36,593 nt of DNA. It comes from Pseudomonadota bacterium. Lineage in GTDB: Bacteria; Desulfobacterota; Desulfobacteria; Desulfobacterales; RPRI01. Positions 1 to 36,593 of the stretch are shown one piece after another. Each line of letters begins with the position of its first letter. Positions within the stretch are counted from its first letter, which is position 1. The stretch covers positions 1-36,593 of the forward strand of contig JAHITX010000055.1 in the NCBI GenBank assembly GCA_018817425.1. Reading direction: 5' to 3'. The notes below the pieces were generated by a model, which saw only the letters and a list, made by a program, of their open reading frames with translations, searched no databases and had not been told where the DNA came from. The translations under genes and the position numbers were made by a program.

Positions 1-164
1 AAAAGTTAATGATATCTCGTTACGCTTATGCGAACTGGTTCCATAGTTTAACACCTATGGGTAAGGAGGTGTCTTAATATTTTTAAATCTTGTGTATGAA
101 CTTAACCCTTTATATGATTATCAAACCTTGAAATATGAACTTACTTGACAAATTTATAAAGCAC

Positions 165-386
165 ACCCCGATCGTGAATGGAGGGCTGCGTGGTCACGTG
201 CCCACTCGCCCCGGATGTACCACACCTCATATCCGGTTCCTGTTCGTCGCCCCGCACTTTTGGATTGGACTTCCTCCAGACCCCACCTCACGATGACGCC
301 CTTGTCCTTCTCCTAACCTTCGGCTTCACGAACACCTGGTGTAAGGACTTTCACCTTACTAGCTCTGTGCCATGCCTGGCACACAC
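165..386 (-). mobile_element. Group II intron 5' fragment (domain I only)
   Basis: Read on the minus strand, the segment starts GTGTGTGCCAGGCATGGC and continues with a GGTGAAAGTCC motif and a GAGGTGGGGTCTGGAGGAAG stretch. This order resembles the 5' end and domain I of bacterial group II introns as I remember them. No reverse transcriptase/maturase frame or 3' domains V-VI follow, so it is a dead fragment. Its 5' end coincides with the distal arm of the hairpin that follows the mazF-like gene; bacterial class C introns characteristically insert behind terminator hairpins. The 3' limit near 165 is approximate. The plus-strand 89-codon open frame here is a by-product. Class assignment is inference. 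Confidence 0.55.
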
Positions 387-5586: not shown

Positions 5587-7908
5587 ATGGAAAAATACTC
5601 GATAATAGGAAAAAGACAAGTCAGAACAGATAGCGCAATCAAGGCTACCGGCTCTGCTAAATTTGCCGGTGACTTTATTCTTCCCGGAATGCTTATCGGA
5701 AAAATCTTAAGGAGTCCTTTACCCCATGCCAAAATTCTAAATATAGATACATCAAAGGCGCTCAAGCTTAAAGGAGTCAGGGCAGTTGTTACAGGAAAAG
5801 ATATAACCGATGTTCCACATGGTATTATGAGAGTTGAACCTTTGCCCGAGATTATCAGAGACAAGTTTTCTCTTGCTAAGCAAAAGGTACGTTTTATCGG
5901 AGATGAGGTAGCTGCTGTGGCGGCTGTTGATGAAGATACGGCAATGGAAGCGCTGGAGTTAATAAAAGTTGACTACGAAGAGCTACCGGCTCTTTTTGAT
6001 ATCTATGAAGCAATGAAACCGGATGCTATACAGATTCATGAGTATTTTCCGGGAAATATCTCAACAATGACTGCATTTCATCACGGAGATGTAGATAAGG
6101 CTTTTGCAGAGTCTGATTTTATACTGGAAGACAAGTATGAAACCCAGCAAACATATCACTCCTATATAGAACCGCATGCAGTTACCGCCGAATATTATGC
6201 CTCCGGAGATGTAACAATATGGCCTAGTACTCAAACACCGTTTTATGACAAGGTATGCATTGCGGAAACTATAGGAATACCGGTAAACAAGGTCAGGATA
6301 ATAAAACCCCATGTTGGTGGAGGATTCGGAGGAAAGGGCGATGTTCATAGTCTTTTTCCTGTATCAGCGCTGCTTTCCAAAATAACCGGCAAGCCTGTAA
6401 CGATTTCTTATACAAGAGAAGAAGATATTTCTACCTGCACAAGACGCCATGCAGCTATTATAGAACAAAAAATTGGAGTTAAAAAAGATGGCCGCATAAT
6501 GGGCTTTGACTCCAAGGTTCTTTGCGATGGAGGAGCTTATCAGGGTGTTTCCATGATATCCATTTTTGCTATGGCCGTCTTTCAACATGGACCTTACAGA
6601 CTTAACAATTTCAAGTGTGACGCACGAAGGATATATACAAACAAGCCTTACTGTGGAGCACAAAGAGGTCATGGCGGAATTCAGCCCCGTTTTGTTATAG
6701 AAACAATGATGGATATAATCGCGGAGAAATTGAATGTTGATCCAATAGAAATACGAAAGATTAATGCTCTTAAAGCCGGAGATACCACCATTAATAAATT
6801 TAAAATAAGAAGCTGCGGCCATGTTGAATCTTTGGACACGGCTTCCGAAGGTATCGGCTGGAAAGAAAACTGGAAAAAGCTTCCCAGAGGAAGGGGTGTG
6901 GGGCTTGCTTCCAACTTCTTTGCATCAGGGCCCGGTTTTTCTTATTTCTTTACCAATCCTCCTTCACATTCAGGTGTGAACATGACTGCTGAAGAAGACG
7001 GCTCTTTTCTGCTTTACAGCGGTTCAACCGACTTAGGCCAGGGTTCAGAAACGGCTTTGGCTATGATTGCAGCAGAAGAAATCGGACTGGCCAGCATTGA
7101 TCCGATTAAAGTCATTGCCGCAGATACGGCAACAACACCGATGGATCTTGGGACTTACGGCAGCAGGCTTATAGTGTGTGCCGGAAACGCCGCCAAAATG
7201 GCTGCAAACAAAATCAGGGAAGAACTTATAGAAACCGCAGCAGAAGCGCTTGAGGCAAATAAAGAAGATCTTGAGGCAAGAGACGGAAGAATATATATCA
7301 AGGGTAACCCGGAAAAAGGTTTAACTATAAAACAAGCTGTTCAGACTCGTTTAAAAGTAAAAAGAATACCTCTATCTACTGTAGGATATTATAACCCGCC
7401 TGTTGATACAGGGGATGTAAGCGGATTTGCGGAAGGCAAAGTCAGTTTGGCCTGTACCTGGAGTTTTGGTTGCCATGCTGCAGAAGTGGAAGTGGATGAA
7501 GAAACAGGTGTTGTGAAAGTACCAAAAATTGCTGCTGCTCATGACTGCGGTTTTGCCATAAACCGAATGGCGGTTGAAGGACAAATTGAAGGTTGTGTTT
7601 CCATGACCTTTGGTCAGGCAACGTGTGAAGACTACAGGACGGAAAAGGGATGGTCAATGACTAATTCATTTTTGGATTACAAGATCCCGACAGCAGAAGA
7701 TATGCCCGATGTGCAATCCATCATTGTGGAATCTATGGATACGGAAGGACCATTCGGAGCCAAAGAAGCAAGTGAAGGTGCAAATATCCCCACAATTCCC
7801 GCTATAGCTAATGCAATATATTATGCTACCGGTGCCAGAATAAAAGAACTTCCCATAACCCCGGAACGAATTTTAAGGGCCCTTGAAAAGAAAGGAGGTA
7901 AAGAATAA
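5587..7908 (+). CDS. hcrA: 4-hydroxybenzoyl-CoA reductase-type alpha subunit (Mo-MCD catalytic)
   Basis: 773 residues, the usual size for the molybdopterin-binding subunit. Visible signatures are the N-terminal AKFAGDFILPGMLIGKILRSPLPHA, WPSTQTPF (Q216 region), the glycine-rich GGGFGGKGD (244-252), the GQGSETALAMIAAEE cofactor loop and the C-terminal GAKEASEG with the expected catalytic Glu at 730. In 4-hydroxybenzoyl-CoA reductase this subunit removes the para-hydroxyl group to give benzoyl-CoA; related enzymes hydroxylate aldehydes or N-heterocycles. AAAGGAGAG precedes the ATG. The stop overlaps the beta-subunit start by one base. Substrate identity is inferred from the operon, not from active-site residues. 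Confidence 0.85.
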   Translation: MEKYSIIGKRQVRTDSAIKATGSAKFAGDFILPGMLIGKILRSPLPHAKILNIDTSKALKLKGVRAVVTGKDITDVPHGIMRVEPLPEIIRDKFSLAKQKVRFIGDEVAAVAAVDEDTAMEALELIKVDYEELPALFDIYEAMKPDAIQIHEYFPGNISTMTAFHHGDVDKAFAESDFILEDKYETQQTYHSYIEPHAVTAEYYASGDVTIWPSTQTPFYDKVCIAETIGIPVNKVRIIKPHVGGGFGGKGDVHSLFPVSALLSKITGKPVTISYTREEDISTCTRRHAAIIEQKIGVKKDGRIMGFDSKVLCDGGAYQGVSMISIFAMAVFQHGPYRLNNFKCDARRIYTNKPYCGAQRGHGGIQPRFVIETMMDIIAEKLNVDPIEIRKINALKAGDTTINKFKIRSCGHVESLDTASEGIGWKENWKKLPRGRGVGLASNFFASGPGFSYFFTNPPSHSGVNMTAEEDGSFLLYSGSTDLGQGSETALAMIAAEEIGLASIDPIKVIAADTATTPMDLGTYGSRLIVCAGNAAKMAANKIREELIETAAEALEANKEDLEARDGRIYIKGNPEKGLTIKQAVQTRLKVKRIPLSTVGYYNPPVDTGDVSGFAEGKVSLACTWSFGCHAAEVEVDEETGVVKVPKIAAAHDCGFAINRMAVEGQIEGCVSMTFGQATCEDYRTEKGWSMTNSFLDYKIPTAEDMPDVQSIIVESMDTEGPFGAKEASEGANIPTIPAIANAIYYATGARIKELPITPERILRALEKKGGKE

Positions 7909-9245: not shown

Positions 9246-11534
9246 ATGAAATATTTCAAATTAAAACTCCGTATTCTAATTCCGTTGATGATAGCAATGA
9301 GCATTTTGTTGGTTTCATTTGCATATACCCTGCAAAGGTTTCATAGGGGGTATGTTGTTAATAATGTAATGAATAATATAAAGTCCGTAAATGACTTGCT
9401 TACCTTGCAGATAGAAAACGATGCGAATTTAATGAGCTCGGTATTAAACGTGCTTTCTAAAGATAAACAAATAAAAAAGGCTTTGATAAATAAAAACAAA
9501 ACCGAATTATTTAATTACACAAGAAGCTTACTTGAAGAACTTAAAAAAAAGTACCGTATTACACATTTTTATTTTACAGGCACTGATAGAATAAACATTT
9601 TACGGGTTCATGATCCTGATAGATACGGTGATAAAATAGAACGTTTTACTACTATTAATGCAGAAAAAACCGGGAAGCTTTTTTACGGGATTGAATTGGG
9701 CCCGCTTGGCACATTTACTCTTCGGGCCGTCATGCCATGGTATGACGGCAAAAAATTAATCGGGTTTGTGGAACTTGGTGAAGAAATAGATCATATTACA
9801 CAAAAACTTCACAAAATACTTGGCCTTGATATTTATATTCTGATAGAAAAAAAATATCTTAATAAAAGGAACTGGGAAAAAGGCATGAAAATGCTTGGCC
9901 GTGACACAAACTGGGATCGCTTCCCGTCTGTAGTTATGATAGGCCAGACATCAAAATATTTTCCGGACAAGCTCACCTCAATCTTTGCCCATAAGGATGT
10001 CAATGCAGGAATAACCGATATTGAGATGACATATAATAAACGGCATTACCGCAGCAAATTTTTCCCGGCTATAGATGCAGGAAACCGGCGTGTAGGAACA
10101 ACGGTAGTTCTACGCGATATTACCGATATAACAATACATCATGATTTAACAATCGCCATAGTATCAGCAATCTGTATGTTATTGGCGCTAATTTTATTTG
10201 TGATTTTTTACAAGTTTTTAGGAAGAATTGAAAAGCAGATTGAAAGCGCAAATATTGAATTGCTGCGTATCAACAAGGCGGTTGAAAACACAAGCGATGC
10301 TATAATACTAACCAGTATTTCGGGCAAAGTTGTTTACAGCAACAAATCATTTTTAGACTTATCCGGTTATACGGCAAATGAATTAAACGAAAACGGCGGG
10401 ATATCCATATTATATACTGGTGACAACTTCTCAGAAGAAGTATTTCAATCTATTGCTAAAGGTAATTCATGGAAGGGCGAGGTTAAAATTAAAACCAGGA
10501 ACAACGGTATTTTCAATATTCTTCTAAGGGCCGATCATATAAGTGATGAAAAAGGAAATATTATTGATCTGATGTTTATTTACACTGACATAACTGAAAG
10601 CAAAAAATGTGAAATCGCCATTATTGAAAATGAGGAGAAGTTTAGAACTATTGCCTCAATGGCAAACGATGCCGTTATGATGATGGATAATAATGGCAAG
10701 ATCTCTTTCTGGAATACCGCTGCGGAAAAAATTCTGGGCTACACAAGCGATGAAGTATTAGGTAAAAATCTTCATAAATTGATTGCTCCACAAAAATACC
10801 ATGAAGCTCATTTGAAAGGCTTTGGTGGCTTTAAACATTCAGGCAAAGGAGATGCAGTTGGAAAAACGCTTGAACTTCAAGCAATCAGAAAAGGTGGCGA
10901 GGAATTTCCAGTGGAACTTTCATTGTCTTCAGTTAAGCTTGAAGAAAAATGGCATGCAGTAGGAATATTAAGAGACATAACAGACAGGAAAAGACTGGAA
11001 GAAGAGCTTAAAAAACTTTCTTACCTTGATGGCTTAACAGGAGTGGCGAATCGAAGACGTTTGGATGAGCTTGTTTTGTATGAGTGGAAGCGTATGATGC
11101 GTGAATCCAAACCAGTATCCATGATAATGAGTGATATCGATTATTTCAAGGCATATAACGACACATACGGCCATCAAAAAGGCGATGACTGTCTAAAAAA
11201 AGTAGCAAATACTTTAAGAATTGTTGTCAAAAGACCCGCCGATTTAGTGGCACGCTACGGCGGGGAAGAATTTGCTATTCTGTTGCCCGGAATCGATGCA
11301 CAGAGTGCGGGTCTCATTGCCGAAAAGATGCGTTTAAAAATTGAAGCTCTTGGAATTAATCATTCCGGCTCTCAAGTATGCAATGTAGTTACAATGAGTT
11401 TCGGGGTAAGCAGCATCGTTCCTTCTGCTGACACCAATATTACAGATTTATTAAAAACTGCTGATTATGCGCTTTATAAATCAAAAAAAGAAGGCAGAAA
11501 CAAAGTGGAAATATACGGTAGTAAAGATTTATGA
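9246..11534 (+). CDS. Membrane PAS-PAS-GGDEF diguanylate cyclase with periplasmic Cache-like sensor
   Basis: 762 residues. TM helix 1 at about 9-28 and TM helix 2 at about 302-324 bracket a roughly 275-residue extracytoplasmic domain that looks like a double-Cache sensor. Two PAS domains follow (about 340-455 and 465-585), then GGDEF (about 590-755). The active-site motif is GGEEF (672-676), and the inhibitory I-site RPAD (663-666) sits exactly five residues upstream. The enzyme should therefore make c-di-GMP from GTP and be product-inhibited. No EAL domain. It is monocistronic, between the hcr terminator and a copy of the 144-bp foldback repeat. The ligand is unknown. YfiR-like proteins, encoded 17 kb away, restrain membrane GGDEF proteins in Pseudomonas, but a link here is only speculation. 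Confidence 0.9.
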   Translation: MKYFKLKLRILIPLMIAMSILLVSFAYTLQRFHRGYVVNNVMNNIKSVNDLLTLQIENDANLMSSVLNVLSKDKQIKKALINKNKTELFNYTRSLLEELKKKYRITHFYFTGTDRINILRVHDPDRYGDKIERFTTINAEKTGKLFYGIELGPLGTFTLRAVMPWYDGKKLIGFVELGEEIDHITQKLHKILGLDIYILIEKKYLNKRNWEKGMKMLGRDTNWDRFPSVVMIGQTSKYFPDKLTSIFAHKDVNAGITDIEMTYNKRHYRSKFFPAIDAGNRRVGTTVVLRDITDITIHHDLTIAIVSAICMLLALILFVIFYKFLGRIEKQIESANIELLRINKAVENTSDAIILTSISGKVVYSNKSFLDLSGYTANELNENGGISILYTGDNFSEEVFQSIAKGNSWKGEVKIKTRNNGIFNILLRADHISDEKGNIIDLMFIYTDITESKKCEIAIIENEEKFRTIASMANDAVMMMDNNGKISFWNTAAEKILGYTSDEVLGKNLHKLIAPQKYHEAHLKGFGGFKHSGKGDAVGKTLELQAIRKGGEEFPVELSLSSVKLEEKWHAVGILRDITDRKRLEEELKKLSYLDGLTGVANRRRLDELVLYEWKRMMRESKPVSMIMSDIDYFKAYNDTYGHQKGDDCLKKVANTLRIVVKRPADLVARYGGEEFAILLPGIDAQSAGLIAEKMRLKIEALGINHSGSQVCNVVTMSFGVSSIVPSADTNITDLLKTADYALYKSKKEGRNKVEIYGSKDL

Positions 11535-11538
11535 CAGC

Positions 11539-11682
11539 TGAGCCAGTTTCAAAACGCCCCATTTTGGCCGATCTCTGCGTTGGGCTCAAATTTCAATCCT
11601 CGAAATACCCAATGTATCCCTGTGGTTGAAATTTTCGCCCACCTTGAGCTTGACCAAACTGAAACGTTTTGAAAGTGGCTCA
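11539..11682 (+). repeat. 144-bp foldback repeat, copy A (full length)
   Basis: Starts TGAGCCAGTTTCAAAACG and ends with the complement of TGAGCCACTTTCAAAACG. The terminal inverted repeats are 29 bp with five mismatches. Inner arms AAATTTCAA (11588-11596) and TTGAAATTT (11626-11634) extend the fold around a loop near ATACCCAATGTAT. It differs from copy B at four positions. It lies 4 bp after the diguanylate cyclase stop and 15 bp from the end of the convergent modC, where it could double as a bidirectional terminator. Confidence 0.9.
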
Positions 11683-24467: not shown

Positions 24468-24611
24468 TGAGCCAGTTTCAAAACGCCCCATTTTGGCCGA
24501 TCTCTGCGTTGGGCTCAAATTTCAATCCTCGAAATACTCAATGTATTCCTGTGGTTGAAATTTTCTCCCGCCTTGAGCTTGACCAAACTGAAACGTTTTG
24601 AAAGTGGCTCA
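24468..24611 (+). repeat. 144-bp foldback repeat, copy B (full length)
   Basis: Same 144-bp length, ends and interior as copy A (four differences, clustered at the hairpin tip and in the right inner arm). It begins 15 bp after the psd stop and ends about 80 bp before leuB, in the same orientation as copies A and C relative to the plus strand. No clear target-site duplication was found. Confidence 0.9.
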
Positions 24612-28562: not shown

Positions 28563-29123
28563 TCATTTTATAATTCTTCTTGCAAGTGCCAAAAGGTCCG
28601 ACCTGATTTTCAGATTAGATTTTTCGGCTGTTTTTAAGTTAACATCAAAACGAATTTTATTTTCTATCCTTACAAATCCTATGCTTCCACCCTTATCCAC
28701 AAAATTATTCATATCGCTGATAGTAAGTATTTCTTTGTTTTTTACTGCATTTAAAATGCTGATAAGATTATTTTTCTCTGAAGCGCTTATGAAAACAACC
28801 TGACATCCTTTTATGTCTTGAATATCCGACAGTGTTCTGACAAGCATTTTTCTGCCCTTTATGAGTTTTCCTTCAATAGCTAAAAGTTCTTCGGTTATAG
28901 GGTCATTGCCCAGTACGCCTATTAAAAACGGTTGGGATGATATGCCTTTACTATATGTGGTGGACCAATCGACAAATTTGGCGAAGTTATAAATAAATGC
29001 CGCCTTTAGTTTGGGTTCCATTTTTGATGATTCTGATCCATAGCTTCCTGATATCGCAATTGATACGGATATCATCAGAACCAGGATAACCCAAAGAATA
29101 TATTTTATTGCCTTATTAGCCAT
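28563..29123 (-). CDS. YfiR-like periplasmic protein (DUF4154), copy 1
   Basis: 186 residues. A signal peptide (IKYILWVILVLMISVSIAIS, cleavage near residue 30) precedes the DUF4154 pattern: KLKAAFIYNFAKFVDW, FLIGVLGNDPITEELL, CQVVFISASEKNN, ILTISDMNNFVDKGGSIGFV, then IRFDVNLKTAEKSNLKIRSD and LLALARRI at the C-terminus. In Pseudomonas YfiR binds and inhibits the membrane diguanylate cyclase YfiN. DUF4154 proteins next to TonB receptors are common and may report on them to signalling enzymes. It lies 71 nt after the receptor gene copy 1 and is last in the array. No cognate GGDEF or kinase gene adjoins it in this window. Confidence 0.85.
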   Translation of the reverse strand: MANKAIKYILWVILVLMISVSIAISGSYGSESSKMEPKLKAAFIYNFAKFVDWSTTYSKGISSQPFLIGVLGNDPITEELLAIEGKLIKGRKMLVRTLSDIQDIKGCQVVFISASEKNNLISILNAVKNKEILTISDMNNFVDKGGSIGFVRIENKIRFDVNLKTAEKSNLKIRSDLLALARRIIK

Positions 29124-29194
29124 ATTATGAGTTGTAATGTCTTATAATATTAAAATTGGTTATGCAAAATCATTAAAATACCATACGGATACTG

Positions 29195-31288
29195 CTAAAA
29201 ACGCCAGGTTACCTTTAAATAAAATGTACGTTCCACTTCTGTTCTATCTAAGTTTAGAAGTTCTTCCTGAAATTCAGGATGTTGGTTGTCAAAAATATTC
29301 TGCCCTACAAGAGATAATTCAATGTTTTGAGTTGGCTTCCATCCTAAGCGAACATCCATTGTGCAGTATCCGTCAATATTTATGAACGGAAGATCGTCAA
29401 CATAACGAAGCCACATATCAAACTCCATATCCTTTGGTAGATCCATAGAAGATCTTAAGGAGAATTGATGTCTTGGAGCTGCAGTTTCATAAGTTAAACT
29501 ATTAGAGGTATCCTGAGTTCCCGACAGGTTCATATGTAAAAAAGAGTAAGCTGGTTTAATTTTCCACCATAAAACCGGATTCCATTCGGCAGATACTTCT
29601 ATGCCGTATGTATGTCCATGAATATCGTTAGTCATTGTGGCAGGTAACACCATGTGAGGCGGAAGAGGTGAAAGCTCTGTAAATGTAGAGGTATAATCAA
29701 TTGCAGTTTCCCTGAGGTCTTTATATTTATTATAAAAAGCAGTAATATCCATTGAAATTGATTCGCTTATATTATTGCGATAGCCGATTTCATAGGCATA
29801 GAGGATTTCAGATTTATAATCATCGTTGGGAATATTAGATATAACCATGGGAATGCCTGATGTGTTTGGAGGATAGCCAGGGGGAATCATAAGAATATTC
29901 AAACGGGCATCATATTCAGCTCTTGAAGGTGTTCTCACAGCCCTTGAAAATGATGCCCAAATGGAGTTTTGTTTATCAGGGGTCCAGAGTGCCCGGATAT
30001 TGGGCTGGAATTCAAAACCACTATAATCGTTGTATTCAAACTTTGCGCCAAGGGTCAACCTGAGATGATCTTCCACTATTGTGATATCATCTTGCACAAA
30101 TGTGCTTAATAGGTCATCGGTACGGCTTTTAGGATAAACAGATATCATATATGAAGATTTTATATTATCGCTTGTAATCCGGTAACCTATGCCCCATATA
30201 AGTTCGTGTTTTTCCCAGGGGGAAAACCTGTGTTGAAAATCAAAATCATATGTGTCTCTTGTTTCACTAATCACTGTTTGATGTATTCTTGTTCTGTCAT
30301 AATACAGTTGCAACGACATATCCGATTTGCCTGAAAACAAATGGTTCCACCTATAAAGAAAGTTTACTCCATCGGTTTTAGTCTCTTCATCAACAGGAAA
30401 TGAATAGGGTGCAGTCAAAGATGGAAAAGAGTAAGACTGGCTTTCATCAGCATGGTAGTGATTTCCCTGAAACATTACAGAATCCGTGGCTGTCGGGTTC
30501 CAATCCGTTCGAAATCCTAATGTATAAATATCCCAGTCATCTTTGGCATCACGACCCGATGAAACTTTTGATTCATCTCTGTCAAAATATTTACTAAAGA
30601 ACCTGTAGGAAGCCTTTTCGTTAATTGAATCACCATATCGAAAAGTTCCGAAACCTCTTTCTTCCTTTCCGGCTCCGGTGCTGACAAGCCCGCCTTTAGT
30701 ATCATGGGCGCTCTTTGTGATGATGTTAATAACTCCGTTTACGGCATTTGCTCCCCATAAAGCTGCACCGGGTCCTCGGATTACTTCTATTCTGTCAATA
30801 TCTTCCAAAGGAGTATCCTGAACATCCCAGAAAACTCCGGAAAAAAGTGGTGTGTAAACAGTACGACCATCCATTAATACAAGAAGCTTATTGGCATAAT
30901 GCCCGTTAAAGCCACGCGATGATATTGCCCACTTGTTTGCATCAATCCGGGCCACCTGTAATCCCGGAACCATGCGCAGGGTTTCGGCAATAGAGGTTAC
31001 CCCGGAGCGCCTGATATCTTCCTGTGTGATAACAAAAGCGGCAGCGGCAGTATTTGCAAGTTTCTGGCTCTTTCTGGCACCCGTGGTAATTTCTATTTCC
31101 ATCAGGTCCTGGATGCTTAGCTCGGTCAGGTCGGCGGAGGATATTTTTCCCGCATAGCATGTATCGACCATTACCGTGCAGGTAAACAAGGCTGAAGCAA
31201 TACATAGCAGAACAAAGTTGAATTTCATAATCGGGTAAATTTTTGCATTTGCCCCCGTCTTCCTCATGCGAAGAATATTTTTTAACAT
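29195..31288 (-). CDS. TonB-dependent outer-membrane receptor, copy 1
   Basis: 697 residues. The ATG at 31288 is preceded by AAGGTG. A long basic N-region leads to a signal peptide around MKFNFVLLCIASALFTCTVM. Then DLTELSIQDLMEIEITTGAR and a plug domain: AAAAFVITQEDIRRSGVTSI, VPGLQVARIDANKWAISSRG, LLVLMDGRTVYTPLFSGVFW and DRIEVIRGPGAALWGANAVN, NGVINIITK. The rest is a 22-strand-type barrel ending FYLKVTWRF with the C-terminal aromatic. It would import a ligand using TonB energy. Ligand unknown; siderophores, cobalamin or other substrates are all possible. Close paralogue of copies 2 and 3. Confidence 0.9.
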   Translation of the reverse strand: MLKNILRMRKTGANAKIYPIMKFNFVLLCIASALFTCTVMVDTCYAGKISSADLTELSIQDLMEIEITTGARKSQKLANTAAAAFVITQEDIRRSGVTSIAETLRMVPGLQVARIDANKWAISSRGFNGHYANKLLVLMDGRTVYTPLFSGVFWDVQDTPLEDIDRIEVIRGPGAALWGANAVNGVINIITKSAHDTKGGLVSTGAGKEERGFGTFRYGDSINEKASYRFFSKYFDRDESKVSSGRDAKDDWDIYTLGFRTDWNPTATDSVMFQGNHYHADESQSYSFPSLTAPYSFPVDEETKTDGVNFLYRWNHLFSGKSDMSLQLYYDRTRIHQTVISETRDTYDFDFQHRFSPWEKHELIWGIGYRITSDNIKSSYMISVYPKSRTDDLLSTFVQDDITIVEDHLRLTLGAKFEYNDYSGFEFQPNIRALWTPDKQNSIWASFSRAVRTPSRAEYDARLNILMIPPGYPPNTSGIPMVISNIPNDDYKSEILYAYEIGYRNNISESISMDITAFYNKYKDLRETAIDYTSTFTELSPLPPHMVLPATMTNDIHGHTYGIEVSAEWNPVLWWKIKPAYSFLHMNLSGTQDTSNSLTYETAAPRHQFSLRSSMDLPKDMEFDMWLRYVDDLPFINIDGYCTMDVRLGWKPTQNIELSLVGQNIFDNQHPEFQEELLNLDRTEVERTFYLKVTWRF

Positions 31289-31379
31289 AACGCACCTTTT
31301 TGGTTAAAAATAATAAATTTAAGATAGAATTGAGCTGATTATGATTCTATTTAAATTTTGATAACTTTTTACTATCTCC

Positions 31380-31475
31380 TCAATTTATAATTCTTCTTGC
31401 AAGCGACAAAAGATCCGATCTGATTTTCAGATTAGATTTTTCGGCTGTTATTAAGTTAATATCAAAACATATTTT
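31380..31475 (-). pseudogene. yfiR-like remnant: last 31 codons only
   Basis: The minus strand reads KICFDINLITAEKSNLKIRS, DLLSLARRIIN, then TGA, the exact C-terminus of the two intact YfiR-like genes (only about three substitutions from copy 2). Homology breaks at about 31475, seven bases from the end of the foldback repeat remnant at 31484. The gene was therefore truncated at or beside that element. It occupies the position after receptor copy 2 where an intact yfiR would be expected. Confidence 0.9.
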
Positions 31476-31483
31476 ATATGTCT

Positions 31484-31542
31484 TGAGCCACTTTCAAAAC
31501 GTTTCAGTTTAGTCAAGCTCAAGGCTGGAGAAAAATTCAACC
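31484..31542 (-). repeat. Foldback repeat, copy D (59-bp remnant, inverted)
   Basis: Plus-strand TGAGCCACTTTCAAAACG is the right-hand end of the element in inverted orientation. Similarity to copies A-C continues through the inner arm (AAAATTCAACC) and stops 11 bp before the stop codon of receptor copy 2. It lies precisely between that stop and the yfiR remnant. Confidence 0.85.
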
Positions 31543-31553
31543 GCTTTAAACTA

Positions 31554-33626
31554 TCAAAAATGCCAGGTTGCCTTTATGTAGAATGCGCGTTCCACCTCAT
31601 ATGTTGCATAGTTTAAGTAGTCTTCTTTAAATTCCTGGTGCTGACTGTCAAAAATATTTTGCCCCACAAGAGATATTTCAAAATTTTCAGCAGGCTTCCA
31701 TCCCAGACGGGCATCAACCATACTATAGCTATTAACGTCTGAATCCGAAAGATCGTCTACATAACGAAGCCAAAGGTCAAGCTCAAGATTCATGGGAAGA
31801 TCCATGTTGGATTGAAAAGAGAATTGATGCCTTGGTGCTTCGCCGGAAGAGTCTTCCGTGGGTTCCGACAGGTTTACATGTAAAAAGGAATAAGCCGGTT
31901 TGATTTTCCACCATGAAAGAGGTTTTAATTCAGCAAATGCTTCTATGCCATATGTGTGTCCTTCATTATCGTTAGAAATTGCAATGGGCAATACAATATG
32001 AGGTACACTGGAATTGAGCTCAGAAAACGGGGTATTATAATTATGTGATCTAAGATCTTTATATCTGTTGTAGAATGCTGCAATATCGATTGAAGCTGAT
32101 TTGCTTATCTCATTGCGATATCCCATCTCATAGGCATAAAGGCTCTCCGGCTTGAAATCTCCAGTGGCAATATTTGAAATAACCATGGGAAGACCGGATG
32201 GATTTTGAGGAGTACCGGGTGGAATTACGAAGAGATTAGTATGCACATCATTTTCTATTCTTGAAGGGGTTCTTACCGCCCTTGAAAATGATGCCCATAT
32301 GGAGTTGTGTTTGTCCGGAGTCCAGAGTGTCCGGATATTGGGTTGGAATTCAAAGCCGCTGTAATCATTGTGTTCAAACTTTGCGCCAAGAGTCAGTCTC
32401 AGATGATCTTGCACTATTGTAATATCATCTTGAACAAATGCGCTTAAAATGTCATCAGTGCGGTTTTCAGGGTCAACTATTACAATGGGGGAGGAATTTG
32501 TTTCAAAGCTTATAAGCCGGTACCCGATACCCCATATAATTTCATGTTTCTCCCGAGGAGAAAACCGGTGTTGAAAATCCAGATCGTAAGTATCTGTTGT
32601 GTTACTGAGTGCTGTCTGTTCTATTCTCGCTCTGTCGTAATATATCTGTAGCTTCATATCCGATGTGTTTGATATAAACCGTTCCCAGCTGGCCAGAAAG
32701 TTTACGCCATCGGATTTGGCATCTTCATTAAAAGTTTGCGAATATGGTGGGGATATATCAGGAAAAGTCATTGTTTGTCCATCGTCCGAACGATAGTGGT
32801 TTCCTTCAAACAAAACAGAATCCGTTGCCGTTGGAGTCCAATCTGTTTTAAATCCAATTGTATAAATATCCCAGTCATCTGCAGCGTCGCGTCCCGATGT
32901 TAATTTGGATTCATCTCTGTCTGCATATTTACCAAAGATACGGTAGCAAGCATTTTCTCCAAGTGAATCACCGAAGCGAAAATTTCCGAATCCTCTTTCT
33001 TCCTTTCCGGCTCCGGCGCTTACAAGTCCACCCTTTGTATCATAGGTGCTTTTTGTGATGATATTTATAACACCGTTTACCGCATTTGCTCCCCACAAAG
33101 CAGCACCTGGTCCACGGATTACTTCTATTCTGTCGATATCTTCAAGAACTGTATCCTGAATATTCCAGAAAACACCGGAATAAAGAGGAGAATAAACCGA
33201 ACGCCCATCCATTAATACAAGCAGCTTATTTGCATATCGGCTATTGAATCCACGCGATGATATGGCCCACTTGTTTGCATCAATTTTGGCAACCTGTAAT
33301 CCCGGAACCATACGAAGAGCATCGGCAATAGAGGTTACACCGGAGCGCCTGATATCTTCCTGTGTGATAACAAAAGCGGCTGCGGCGGTATTTGCTAATG
33401 TCTGGCTTTTTCTTGCGCCCGTAGTAATTTCGATTTCCATCAGATCCCGGATACTCAGTTCTGTGAGGTCGCCTGAAGATATTTCATCCGCATGACATGT
33501 ACCGACCAATGCTGTGCATGGAAACAAGGCTGAAGCAATACATAGCAGGATAAAGATTAATTTCATAATCAGGAAAATATTTAAATATTTTCCTGATTTT
33601 CTCAGAAGAAGGCAACTTTTTAACAT
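31554..33626 (-). CDS. TonB-dependent outer-membrane receptor, copy 2
   Basis: 690 residues with AAGGATG before the ATG. The same layout as copy 1: basic N-region, signal peptide (MKLIFILLCIASALFPCTAL), DLTELSIRDLMEIEITTGAR, plug with ITQEDIRRSGVTSIADALRM and DRIEVIRGPGAALWGANAVN, then the barrel ending FYIKATWHF. Sequence is close to copies 1 and 3 in the plug and inner strands and differs most in extracellular-loop-like segments, as expected for paralogues with altered ligand or phage exposure. Its downstream yfiR partner is reduced to a remnant, so it may now depend on the other copies. Confidence 0.9.
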   Translation of the reverse strand: MLKSCLLLRKSGKYLNIFLIMKLIFILLCIASALFPCTALVGTCHADEISSGDLTELSIRDLMEIEITTGARKSQTLANTAAAAFVITQEDIRRSGVTSIADALRMVPGLQVAKIDANKWAISSRGFNSRYANKLLVLMDGRSVYSPLYSGVFWNIQDTVLEDIDRIEVIRGPGAALWGANAVNGVINIITKSTYDTKGGLVSAGAGKEERGFGNFRFGDSLGENACYRIFGKYADRDESKLTSGRDAADDWDIYTIGFKTDWTPTATDSVLFEGNHYRSDDGQTMTFPDISPPYSQTFNEDAKSDGVNFLASWERFISNTSDMKLQIYYDRARIEQTALSNTTDTYDLDFQHRFSPREKHEIIWGIGYRLISFETNSSPIVIVDPENRTDDILSAFVQDDITIVQDHLRLTLGAKFEHNDYSGFEFQPNIRTLWTPDKHNSIWASFSRAVRTPSRIENDVHTNLFVIPPGTPQNPSGLPMVISNIATGDFKPESLYAYEMGYRNEISKSASIDIAAFYNRYKDLRSHNYNTPFSELNSSVPHIVLPIAISNDNEGHTYGIEAFAELKPLSWWKIKPAYSFLHVNLSEPTEDSSGEAPRHQFSFQSNMDLPMNLELDLWLRYVDDLSDSDVNSYSMVDARLGWKPAENFEISLVGQNIFDSQHQEFKEDYLNYATYEVERAFYIKATWHF

Positions 33627-33724
33627 AACTCATCCTTTTCGATTCAAATAATAAATGTCATAAATATTGAACTCCTCTATTTATGAGTGTATATATATAC
33701 ATTCGATAGCTTTTTATAAGTTAT

Positions 33725-34324
33725 TCAATTTATAATTCTTCTTGCAAGTGCCAAAAGGTCCGACCTGATTTTCAGATTGGATTTTTCGGCTGTTTTTAAG
33801 TTAATATCAAAACGTATTTTATTTTCTATCCTTACAAATCCTATGTTTCCTCCGTTACCCACAAAATTATTCATATCGCTTACAGTAAGTATTTCTTTGT
33901 TTTTTACTGCATTTAAAATGCTGATAAGATTATTTTTCTCTGAAGCGCTTATAAAAACAACCTGGCAGTTATTAATTTCTTTAATGTTTGACAATAATCT
34001 TACAGCCAGTTTTCTGCCCTTTATGATTTTTCCTTCAATAGCTAAAAGTTCTTCAATAATTGGATTACTGCCAAGTACGCCTATTACAAACGATTGGGAT
34101 GAGGTATCTTTACTTTCTGTGGCAGGCCAGTCGACAAATTTGGCAAAATTATAAATAAATGCCGCCTTTAGTTTGGATTCCGTATTTAAAGATTCCGATG
34201 CATAACTCAATGACGAAGAAATCGATACGGATATCATAAGGATAAGGATTACCCATAGGATATATTTTGAAACCTGATTAGTTGTAAATACCTTATAATA
34301 TTTAATTTGATTATGTATAATCAT
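33725..34324 (-). CDS. YfiR-like periplasmic protein (DUF4154), copy 2
   Basis: 199 residues as called from ATG 34324; the homologous start in copy 1 corresponds to a point about 16 codons downstream where the ATG has been lost. The signal peptide core (KYILWVILILMISVSISSSL) is followed by KLKAAFIYNFAKFVDWPA, VIGVLGSNPIIEELLAIEG, CQVVFISASEKNN, LTVSDMNNFVGNGGNIGFVR and the conserved tail LKIRSDLLALARRIIN. It follows receptor copy 3 by 21 nt, so the two are co-transcribed. Role as in copy 1: probably a periplasmic regulator linked to the receptor. Confidence 0.82.
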   Translation of the reverse strand: MIIHNQIKYYKVFTTNQVSKYILWVILILMISVSISSSLSYASESLNTESKLKAAFIYNFAKFVDWPATESKDTSSQSFVIGVLGSNPIIEELLAIEGKIIKGRKLAVRLLSNIKEINNCQVVFISASEKNNLISILNAVKNKEILTVSDMNNFVGNGGNIGFVRIENKIRFDINLKTAEKSNLKIRSDLLALARRIIN

Positions 34325-34345
34325 TTAAGTATGATATTTATGCTG

Positions 34346-36445
34346 TTAAAAATGCCATGTTATCTTAAAATAAATTGTACGTTCCACCTCGGTAGAAACT
34401 AAATTTAAAACCGAGTCATTAAACTCCTTGTGCTGGTTGTCAAAAATATTCTGTCCTGCAAGAGATAATTCAAGGTTTTGAGTAGGCTTCCACCCTAAGC
34501 GGGCATCCACCATGCAATATCCATCAATATTTATAACCGGCAGATCGTCAACAGTACGTAGCCACAGGTCAAGCTCCAGATTCATGGGAAGGTCCATGTT
34601 GGACATCAAAGATAGCTGATGTCTTGGTGCCGCCTTATCAAGTGGTTTAATAGAAAAGTAACTTGGAGATTTTGTAATGTTAATATGCAAAAAGGAATAA
34701 GCCGGTTTGATTTTCCACCATGCAATTGGTTGCCATTGCCCATATACTTCTATGCCATAAGTATGTCCATGAGCATCGTTGTCAAGCAATATGGGTGCTA
34801 CAAGATGAGACGGAAGAGGATCAGATTCAAAAAATACAGCCGTAAAATCCAAATTGGTTGATCTAAGATTATTATATTTATTATAGAAAGCGGTGATATC
34901 CATTGAAATTGAGTCACTTATCTGATTTCGGTAGCCTATTTCATAGGCATATAGGATCTCGGATTTAAGATTATCATTGGGAATATTTTGTATAAGAATG
35001 GGGAGCCCTGATGAGTTTGGAGGAATGCCGGGAGGCAGTACAGAAAAATTAGCTTTTCCATTACTTTCGGCTCTTGAAGGGGTTCTTGTTGCCCTTGAAA
35101 AGGACGCCCATATAGAGTTTTGTTTATCAGGTGTCCATAGTGCACGTATATTAGGCTGGAATTCAAAACCTGTATAGTCATTGTATTCAAATTTTGCACC
35201 AATGGTTAACCTCAGATAATCTTCAAATATTTTTATATCATCCTGTACAAACGCACTTAAAAGATCATCGGTGCGACTGTTCGGATCAATAGATACATTG
35301 CTGGAAGGCTTTATATTATCTTTTGTAAGACGGTATCCGAGCCCCCATATAGTCTCATGATCTTTTAATGGGGAAAACCGGTGTTGAAAATCCAAATCGT
35401 ATGTATCTCTTGTTTCGCCAACTATAGACAGATTTTGTTTTGTTCTGTCATAATATAATTGAAGAATCATGTCCGATGTGTTCGATAAAATACTTTGCCA
35501 TCTTACAAGAAAGTTTATGCCTTCGTTGTTATTATCTTCTACTAAAGTTGTTGAATAGGGCGGTGTCAAGCTTGAGACAGTTGTTGCCGAGCCGCTATCC
35601 GTACTGGAATTATTTGCCTGAAACATCACAGAATCAGTTGCTGTCGGATTCCAGTCAGTTCGAAATCCTAAAGTATAAATATCCCAGTCATCTGAGGCAT
35701 CACGTCCCGATGAATATCTGAATTCATCTCTGTCGGCATATTTGCCAAAGATGCGGTAGTATGCATTTCTACCAAGCGTATCGCCGAAACGAAAACTACC
35801 AAACCCTCTTTCCTCTTTTCCGGCTCCCACGCTTATAAGCCCGCCAGTTGTATCTTTGGCGTTTTTGGTGATTATATTTATAACTCCGTTTACGGCATTC
35901 GCACCCCATAGAGCTGCGCCGGGCCCTCGTATTACTTCTATTCTGTCAATATCATCAAGAAGGGTGTCCTGGATATCCCAGAATGCAGAAGTGTATAGAG
36001 GAGAGTAAAGTGTGCGTCCATCCATAAGCACAAGCAGCTTATTGGAAAGTCGGCTGTTGAATCCGCGAGATGATATGGCCCACTTGTTTGCATCGATCCG
36101 GGCAACCTGCAATCCGGGAACCATGCGCAAAGCTTCAGGAATACTGGTTACCCCGGAGCGTCTGATATCTTCCTGCGTAATTACAAAAGCGGCAGCAGCA
36201 GTATTTGCAAGTGTCTGACTTTTTTTGGAACCTGTGGTAATTTCAATCTCAATTTCCATTAACTCCCGGATGCTTAATTCTGCAAGATCATCGGTGGATA
36301 TTGTTTCAGCATAGCACGCACCTATCCACACCGTACCAGGCAAAAAAGTTAAAGATATAAATAACAAAATCCCGATAAATTTAAGAAGCAAGGTACTTTT
36401 TGTATCTTTTGCTGTCTTTTTTATAAGCAGGCTATTATTTTGCAT
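34346..36445 (-). CDS. TonB-dependent outer-membrane receptor, copy 3
   Basis: About 699 residues from ATG 36445 (MQNNSLLIKKTAKDTKSTLL). A longer reading from 36469 would begin inside the foldback repeat, so I reject it. Signal peptide around LLKFIGILLFISLTFLPGTV, then DLAELSIRELMEIEIEITTG with an extra IE relative to the paralogues, plug ITQEDIRRSGVTSIPEALRM, DRIEVIRGPGAALWGANAVN, and a barrel ending IYFKITWHF. It is the first gene of the array. The foldback element copy C ends 11 bp before its start, leaving little room for a native ribosome site; AAGAG 8 nt upstream straddles the junction. Confidence 0.88.
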   Translation of the reverse strand: MQNNSLLIKKTAKDTKSTLLLKFIGILLFISLTFLPGTVWIGACYAETISTDDLAELSIRELMEIEIEITTGSKKSQTLANTAAAAFVITQEDIRRSGVTSIPEALRMVPGLQVARIDANKWAISSRGFNSRLSNKLLVLMDGRTLYSPLYTSAFWDIQDTLLDDIDRIEVIRGPGAALWGANAVNGVINIITKNAKDTTGGLISVGAGKEERGFGSFRFGDTLGRNAYYRIFGKYADRDEFRYSSGRDASDDWDIYTLGFRTDWNPTATDSVMFQANNSSTDSGSATTVSSLTPPYSTTLVEDNNNEGINFLVRWQSILSNTSDMILQLYYDRTKQNLSIVGETRDTYDLDFQHRFSPLKDHETIWGLGYRLTKDNIKPSSNVSIDPNSRTDDLLSAFVQDDIKIFEDYLRLTIGAKFEYNDYTGFEFQPNIRALWTPDKQNSIWASFSRATRTPSRAESNGKANFSVLPPGIPPNSSGLPILIQNIPNDNLKSEILYAYEIGYRNQISDSISMDITAFYNKYNNLRSTNLDFTAVFFESDPLPSHLVAPILLDNDAHGHTYGIEVYGQWQPIAWWKIKPAYSFLHINITKSPSYFSIKPLDKAAPRHQLSLMSNMDLPMNLELDLWLRTVDDLPVINIDGYCMVDARLGWKPTQNLELSLAGQNIFDNQHKEFNDSVLNLVSTEVERTIYFKITWHF

Positions 36446-36455
36446 AATACACTCT

Positions 36456-36593
36456 TGAGCCAGTTTCAAAACGCCCCATTTTGGCCGATCTCTGCGTTGG
36501 GCTCAAATTTCAATCCTCGAAATACTAAATGTATTCCTGTGGTTGAAATTTTCGCCCGCCTTGAGCTTGACCAAACTGAAACGTTTTGAAAGT
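36456..36593 (+). repeat. 144-bp foldback repeat, copy C (cut by the window end)
   Basis: 138 bp visible, identical in start and layout to copies A and B (two differences from B). It occupies the upstream region of receptor copy 3, so any promoter for the array lies within it or beyond it. On the minus strand its transcript would form the receptor leader. Confidence 0.9.

Follow-up and report, generated by a model that had tools for sequence, protein, structure and literature searches.

In the YfiBNR system of Pseudomonas aeruginosa, YfiR silences the sensor protein YfiN, and the OmpA-like lipoprotein YfiB has the outer-membrane role. YfiN-type sensors resemble the Pfam family CHASE8, and the AAVVF motif of YfiN has been proposed as its site for YfiR (PMC3375315). 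The same report described in 2012 distant systems that lack YfiB and have a histidine kinase as output; for YfiB-less systems it proposed that YfiR itself is the input, through redox cysteines or an undiscovered mechanism (PMC3375315). The word 'TonB' never occurs in its main text, and how YfiB-less YfiR systems receive their signals is apparently unsettled in the literature. NCBIfam (release 20, whose entries give the family names used here) already names an association of a TOL_0244 TonB-dependent receptor (TBDR; NF053590), a TOL_0243 YfiR-like protein (NF053591), and a YfiR-like-protein-associated sensor histidine kinase (NF053592). We found no paper title that joins YfiR and TonB receptors in one system, in a search outside which most subscription journals lay. 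A TonB receptor is also tied to inner-membrane signalling in cell-surface signalling of the FecA-FecR-FecI type. Here, we analyse an array of TBDR and YfiR genes in a Desulfobacterales genome (G000) of 5.12 Mb in 147 contigs. The window, i.e., the whole stretch of 36,593 nucleotides that was analysed, is contig C55:1-36593; it runs from the first base of C55 to 36593, and no C55 place was found beyond that position. Our preferred reading, to which we assign a probability of roughly 55%, is that the array consists of kinase-less receptor-YfiR input modules that feed shared kinases in trans.

The array lies on the minus strand (28563-36469) and comprises three TBDRs and three YfiR genes, of which two are intact and one is a remnant, transcribed in the order receptor A, yfiR A, receptor B, yfiR remnant, receptor C, yfiR C. 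Together with the adjoining copies of a dispersed repeat, its features are as follows:

36456-36593: copy of the dispersed repeat, at the contig end and directly upstream of receptor A
34346-36469, minus strand: receptor A (start TTG at 36469 or ATG at 36445; Pfam Plug and TonB_dep_Rec)
33725-34324, minus strand: yfiR A, a YfiR-like periplasmic protein (DUF4154, 153.4 bits)
31554-33626, minus strand: receptor B (Pfam Plug and TonB_dep_Rec)
31484-31544: half copy of the 142-bp dispersed repeat, adjoining the yfiR remnant
about 31377-31478, minus strand: yfiR remnant (last 32 codons)
29195-31288, minus strand: receptor C (Pfam Plug and TonB_dep_Rec)
28563-29123, minus strand: yfiR C (DUF4154, 147.8 bits)

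The original prediction, made from the sequence alone, had given this order, these coordinates, and these gene types, and the open reading frames (ORFs), the direct repeats, Pfam, and a YfiR model confirm them. We hold the gene identities with high confidence. Both YfiRs match DUF4154 (YfiR/HmsC-like) and exceed the curated cut-off of NF053591 (144.3 bits for yfiR A and 141.3 for yfiR C; cut-off 125), and receptors A, B, and C exceed that of NF053590 (652.2, 655.7, and 694.3 bits; cut-off 645). Direct repeats link the modules, and their spacing is largely constant (2338 and 2813 bp in 4 of 9 repeat families). According to the ORF list and Pfam, the array holds receptor and YfiR genes only, with no kinase or cyclase. 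It is a variant of the association already named in NCBIfam, in which the receptor-YfiR unit is repeated and the kinase is absent. It differs from signalling of the FecA type in that the three receptors have no match to the STN domain (Pfam, E 0.001) and the array genes are receptors and YfiRs only, and from YfiBNR in having TonB receptors instead of YfiB, which was searched in the array only (28563-36469) and is absent from it.

The partner type is missing only beside the array, because contigs C44, C58, and C36 of the same genome hold CHASE8 kinases. The earlier statement that the usual cyclase or kinase partner is absent here therefore holds only locally. A PF13689 profile search of the genome retrieved five YfiR genes: the two of the window and three single ones, on C73, C44, and C58. 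Those of C44 and C58 belong to complete operons composed of a receptor, yfiR, and a hybrid kinase (CHASE8-HAMP-PAS-HisKA-HATPase-REC). The genome has three CHASE8 proteins, all above the Pfam cut-off of 27 bits for PF17152 (57.1 for C58, 53.3 for C44, 46.5 for C36). The N-terminus of the C58 kinase also matches the DgcN/YfiN model with 80.8 bits, under the cut-off of that model. The segments NSKAAIIF, in the kinases of C44 and C58, and GINTTAAVLF, in that of C36, resemble the AAVVF motif of YfiN. Two features are shared with YfiBNR: the YfiR fold, and a CHASE8 sensor with a segment like AAVVF, which the partner kinases carry. The genus operons differ from YfiBNR in having a kinase rather than a GGDEF protein. 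In the genus mate G007 the receptor-yfiR unit stands twice before one kinase, and in the corresponding neighbourhoods of G000 and the genus mate G006 it stands once.

The C36 kinase (L147:4042-6933) combines CHASE8, HisKA, HATPase, two REC, and Hpt domains, and the gene after it encodes a REC-PAS-GGDEF-EAL protein (L147:1819-3999). The sequence fetched around this kinase contained neither a YfiR nor a receptor match, and the same holds for the surroundings fetched for its relatives in G006 and G007, where the kinase is 72-73% and the following GGDEF gene 74-80% identical. The C36-type kinase and the window-type YfiR occur in exactly the same 3 of 10 genus genomes, as scored for YfiR with alignment A2, which very divergent YfiRs could escape. 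This 3-of-3 co-occurrence is suggestive only. The original prediction had also raised the possibility that the YfiRs control the cyclase at 9246 of the window, which the sensor of that protein does not support: it matches dCache_3 and has no CHASE8 match.

We considered whether the array had simply lost a kinase at the contig edge. This is unlikely because the three CHASE8 proteins are all placed and folE2 closes the downstream side, an argument limited by the fragmentation of the assembly. Contig C73 carries a fourth receptor-yfiR pair (receptor D and yfiR D) beside thiD, and this yfiR ends at a contig-end copy of the repeat. The repeat copies of C55 and C73 agree at 133 of 133 bases, in an orientation that fits a join, and receptors A and D are sister to each other. 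Against joining the two contigs through this shared repeat, the genome has some 200 copies of it, and the 4-bp flanks, compared by eye, are not an exact match.

The order of the genes is widely conserved. Two peptide patterns of the receptor subfamily gave a sample of 77 distinct loci, corresponding to the best 80 of 314 matches and including two loci of G007 (L053, L054). They come from Desulfobacterales, Geobacter, Nitrospirota, Nitrospina, Acidobacteria, Verrucomicrobia, Planctomycetota, Gammaproteobacteria, and others. A YfiR ORF was present in 67 of the 77 loci (within 1 kb of the best receptor in 60), and a CHASE8 ORF lay at most 1.5 kb from YfiR in 58; a Pfam recheck recovered DUF4154 in 67/67 and CHASE8 in 58/58. 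Among these CHASE8 ORFs, 48 have a kinase match, 2 a GGDEF match, 1 both, and 7 neither. Three of the 10 loci without YfiR have less than 1.4 kb of contig downstream. A REC-GGDEF gene is close to the kinase in 15 of the 77 loci, and 20 have more than one receptor ORF, split ones counted. Three successive receptors precede one YfiR and a kinase in a Nitrospira metagenome-assembled genome (L062); one from Verrucomicrobia (L091) has five successive receptor ORFs, the last cut by the locus end, and no YfiR in the locus.

Because this sample had been chosen by the receptor, we took a reverse sample selected by YfiR. PF13689 matched 43 of 146 genomes drawn from the class (42 above the cut-off) in 68 places. 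We left out of the counts the 8 places in G000 and G006, and also L221, where no YfiR ORF was called, so that 59 of the 60 places fetched had a YfiR ORF. The TBDR and CHASE8-like calls in this sample were made with purpose-built hidden Markov models, without a Pfam recheck. Of the 59 loci, 46 have a TBDR on the YfiR strand at a distance of up to 1 kb; it is upstream of YfiR in 43 and downstream in 3. In 51 loci a CHASE8-like ORF is found no more than 300 bp away, and 49 of these have a kinase match. The two neighbours occur together in 40 loci. At least two contigs are common to both samples, as judged by their length (L172 equals L055, and L177 equals L061). Adjacency of a TBDR by chance would be rare, because the window's genome has only 25 Plug matches in 5.12 Mb. 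These neighbourhoods point to TBDRs as the YfiR input in many phyla. They also support the earlier view that signalling is more likely than plain import, since receptors and YfiRs of these types usually precede a CHASE8 kinase.

The preferred reading implies a pathway from a TBDR, through a periplasmic YfiR-like repressor, to an inner-membrane kinase with a CHASE8 (YfiN-type) sensor. YfiR would bind and silence this sensor, as YfiR does with YfiN, and a ligand or the action of TonB on the receptor would alter its hold. The receptor would then take the outer-membrane role that YfiB has in Pseudomonas. The orphan modules would act in trans on the kinases of C58, C44, or C36, a wiring that would bring several ligand inputs into few kinases. 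Such signalling through shared kinases in trans is plausible. The redox-cysteine input proposed for YfiB-less systems (PMC3375315) fits poorly here because each window YfiR has a single cysteine. Kinase-less arrays are a natural test of receptor-YfiR modules working in trans: if they do, a bacterium could give a kinase that it already has further ligand inputs by duplicating just two genes.

Several observations weigh against this reading. Adjacency indicates a shared pathway, not its mechanism. The orphan YfiRs might not reach the kinases of C44 and C58, because these have a YfiR of their own. The co-occurrence of YfiR and the C36-type kinase may be clade inheritance; the folE2 regions of G006 and G007 are 85-87% identical to that of G000, and those of G001 and G008 78-81%. 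The motif patterns used recovered a segment of the NS.A..F type from no more than 40 or 41 of the 58 kinase N-termini. With NF053592, the scores of the five genus kinases are 166-181 bits, all under its cut-off of 194 (C58, 171.6; C36, 169.0; C44, 165.8; G006, 166.9; G007, 180.9); the outgroup kinase of L055 passes with 198.9 bits. In the YfiR-selected sample, 13 of 59 loci have no TBDR within 1 kb, 4 of which have less than 750 bp of contig upstream. Finally, modules decay, as seen in the remnant of module B and in a deletion on contig C69 of G006.

We inferred trees of the receptors, which separate them into distinct lineages. Receptor A is sister to receptor D, and both are sister to the truncated receptor that G006 has at its thiD locus. 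Receptor C is sister to receptor C92a of G007. For receptor B, the protein tree gives no sister with good support, and the codon tree gives a weak grouping with the C44 and C58 receptors. Approximately unbiased (AU) tests reject trees in which A, B, C, and D are forced together (p 1e-37 for protein, 3e-91 for codons), and also those in which C is forced with A and D (p 2e-5, codons). These tests rule out the tandem triplication of the original prediction as a single recent event at this place; they are compatible with an older one that preceded the species split and was followed by losses elsewhere. The fetched folE2 neighbourhoods of G006 and G007 have no receptor or YfiR match beside folE2. 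The array was probably assembled or reshuffled from separate receptor lineages.

Divergence at synonymous sites (dS) provides additional information on these lineages. Between G000 and G007, dS is 0.62-0.81 for folE2, greA, asd, and thiD. Receptor C and C92a differ by 0.33 overall, which splits into 0.23 in the barrel (0.18-0.30) and 0.61 in the N-terminus and plug (0.44-0.86). The receptor C barrel was probably exchanged between species after they split, because its dS is low relative to both the rest of the receptor and the other genes. Receptor A and the receptor of the G006 thiD locus differ by 0.53 over the first 270 codons, the ordinary level between these species (0.58-0.74 for six other genes of G000 and G006). 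Independent acquisition of the modules, raised earlier as a condition that would overturn a triplication, thus finds some support in the barrel of receptor C and none in receptor A. Purifying selection acts on the A and D modules, because nonsynonymous divergence (dN) is far under dS in the receptors (0.071 and 0.293) and in the yfiR genes (0.062 and 0.265); dN/dS between these modules is about 0.24.

The YfiR proteins tell a partly different story from that of the receptors. The model of yfiR A is confident (predicted local distance difference test [pLDDT] 90.4), and its best 15 PDB matches are all YfiR or YfiB-YfiR entries, with template modelling (TM) scores up to 0.82 by target length. The window YfiRs resemble the P. 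aeruginosa protein in both sequence profile and predicted fold. They score 40.4 and 37.6 bits for the YfiR of YfiBNR (NF053586), under its cut-off of 85. Each has one cysteine rather than four, so the two conserved cysteine pairs described in YfiR (PMC4655355) do not occur in them. In the trees, yfiR C clusters with yfiR A and D, and forcing it with the yfiR of C92a is rejected (AU p 2e-5 for codons, 0.01 for protein). Over the final 80 columns of the alignment, dS between yfiR A and C is 0.09 (0.02-0.20), down from 0.63 (0.39-0.98) in the first part. The YfiR 3' ends therefore look homogenised by conversion, because a conversion tract would give such a fall. There is no such step between yfiR A and D (0.25 and 0.28), and a weaker one between those of C44 and C58 (0.71 and 0.35, with overlapping intervals). 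Much of the conserved surface with which P. aeruginosa YfiR binds YfiB is described as made up of its C-terminal helices and a strand close by, and the same surface is predicted to bind YfiN (PMC4655355). Conversion may thus keep alike the end of YfiR that forms part of the partner-binding surface in P. aeruginosa.

These patterns suggest a wider reading that we hold only tentatively, as it is less probable than not. In a many-to-one network, reshufflable kinase-less receptor-YfiR cassettes would act in trans on a few CHASE8 kinases, with barrels traded between species and the kinase-facing end of YfiR homogenised. The YfiR-less C36 kinase would signal to its REC-PAS-GGDEF-EAL neighbour, so that ligand recognition at the outer membrane would set cyclic di-GMP. 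In YfiR systems that lack YfiB, the outer-membrane partner would then be the TonB receptor.

In the AlphaFold model of receptor A (mean pLDDT 84.5), DSSP shows 22 long strands, as expected of a TBDR with a plug and a 22-strand barrel. Foldseek matched it to many TBDRs, without a clue to the ligand; among the 50 PDB matches listed are PirA, Cir, PfeA, BtuB, and ChuA (identity 13-19%). We assigned the barrel strands to the sides of the membrane by the usual TBDR topology. Among receptors A, B, and C, 26 of 130 positions vary in the plug, 159 of 305 in the extracellular halves of the barrel (loops 88/145, strand halves 71/160), and 69 of 193 in its periplasmic halves. The original prediction of a conserved plug and divergent loops is borne out by these counts, except that variation is not quite confined to the extracellular parts: the periplasmic turns (18/34, against 48/150 in the periplasmic strand halves) and the stretch before the plug (21/39) vary too. 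Recent conversion is mostly ruled out as the cause of the likeness of the plugs, as their dS (0.53-1.03) is near that of the barrels (0.94-1.11). The exception is the pair of receptors B and C, with 0.60 in the N-terminus and plug and 1.07 in the barrel. In the extracellular loops, dN is 0.33-0.40 and dS is 0.70-1.67; the loops are under looser constraint, with no sign of positive selection.

The array could also serve uptake alone, importing several related ligands, with YfiR as a passenger or a periplasmic ligand carrier. The receptor model is like that of ordinary TBDRs, the extracellular loops are variable, and the weaker fold matches of YfiR include substrate-binding proteins (ranks 16-19, TM 0.41-0.46 by query length). 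The family's namesake, TOL_0244 of Thalassolituus oleivorans, was up sevenfold on n-C28 relative to Tween 80; its authors read it as an alkane receptor and liken it to OmpS of Alcanivorax dieselolei, which they describe as needed for alkane detection (PMC6304351). Both are TBDRs that this work links to alkane sensing or uptake. Hydrophobic compounds as ligands of the window receptors are a lead only, and two PFL-like enzymes of the genome gave no clear clue to alkane activation. Import by itself leaves aside the CHASE8-like sensor beside YfiR in 51 of the 59 YfiR-selected loci and the 15 best fold matches of YfiR, and we consider it unlikely. Switching of receptors to evade phages or bacteriocins that use TBDRs would account for the greater variation of the extracellular barrel halves than of the periplasmic halves and plug (159/305, 69/193, and 26/130), and for the probable exchange of the receptor C barrel. 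Against it, loop dN is below dS and the linkage with YfiR and a kinase is left unexplained, and we give it a very low probability.

A further explanation is that the array is a decaying leftover, which lost its kinase and undergoes erosion by repeat insertions and deletions. It finds support in the absence of a kinase at the array, the yfiR remnant joined to a half repeat, and the truncation of both a receptor and a yfiR at the G006 thiD locus. Yet three receptors and two YfiRs are intact, dN/dS between the A and D modules is low, and the YfiR 3' ends are kept alike, all of which make wholesale decay improbable. Erosion of the middle module itself is clear: as predicted, its yfiR is a remnant, which matches only positions 155-186 of the 186 of the YfiR model and is identical to the yfiR of C73 at 95 of 99 bases. 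The adjoining repeat may have caused this decay. On contig C69 of G006 (L143:7793-9066), a receptor and yfiR are truncated, apparently by one deletion that removes the C-terminal part of the receptor and the start of yfiR; a repeat copy lies just upstream.

Full copies of the repeat are 142 bp long (one is 144) and have inverted terminal repeats. Besides the contig-end and half copies listed above, the window has copies at 11540-11681 and 24469-24610. The genome has roughly 200 copies, because the end pattern (at most one mismatch) is found 201 times forward and 211 times in reverse, and the pattern written backwards 0 times and once. Most of the copies listed are 95-100% identical to the window copy. 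A 4-bp target duplication flanks 5 of the 9 complete copies examined, and the folding energies computed for one copy are -56 kcal/mol for one strand and -66 kcal/mol for the other (RNA parameters). A copy lies between lnt and prfB in G006 and none does in G000. With the G006 copy as query, five further genomes of the genus were searched, and each has related repeats. The element looks like a miniature inverted-repeat transposable element. On C44 (L017:5796-6580), a copy at 6439-6580 supplies the last codons of an ORF without Pfam match (5796-6527).

Among the other features of the genus, contig C192 of G006 (L144:9725-12385) has a divergent yfiR followed by a receptor, the opposite of the usual order, and no kinase match in the 19-kb stretch around the pair. 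In the window, folE2 (Pfam GCHY-1) lies on the opposite strand, 85 bp from the stop of yfiR C. The genes that we call thiD, greA, asd, lnt, and prfB are presumed to be these from the appearance of their proteins. The sole Rfam match in the window is to group II intron D1D4-3 (119-297, minus strand, 84.1 bits).

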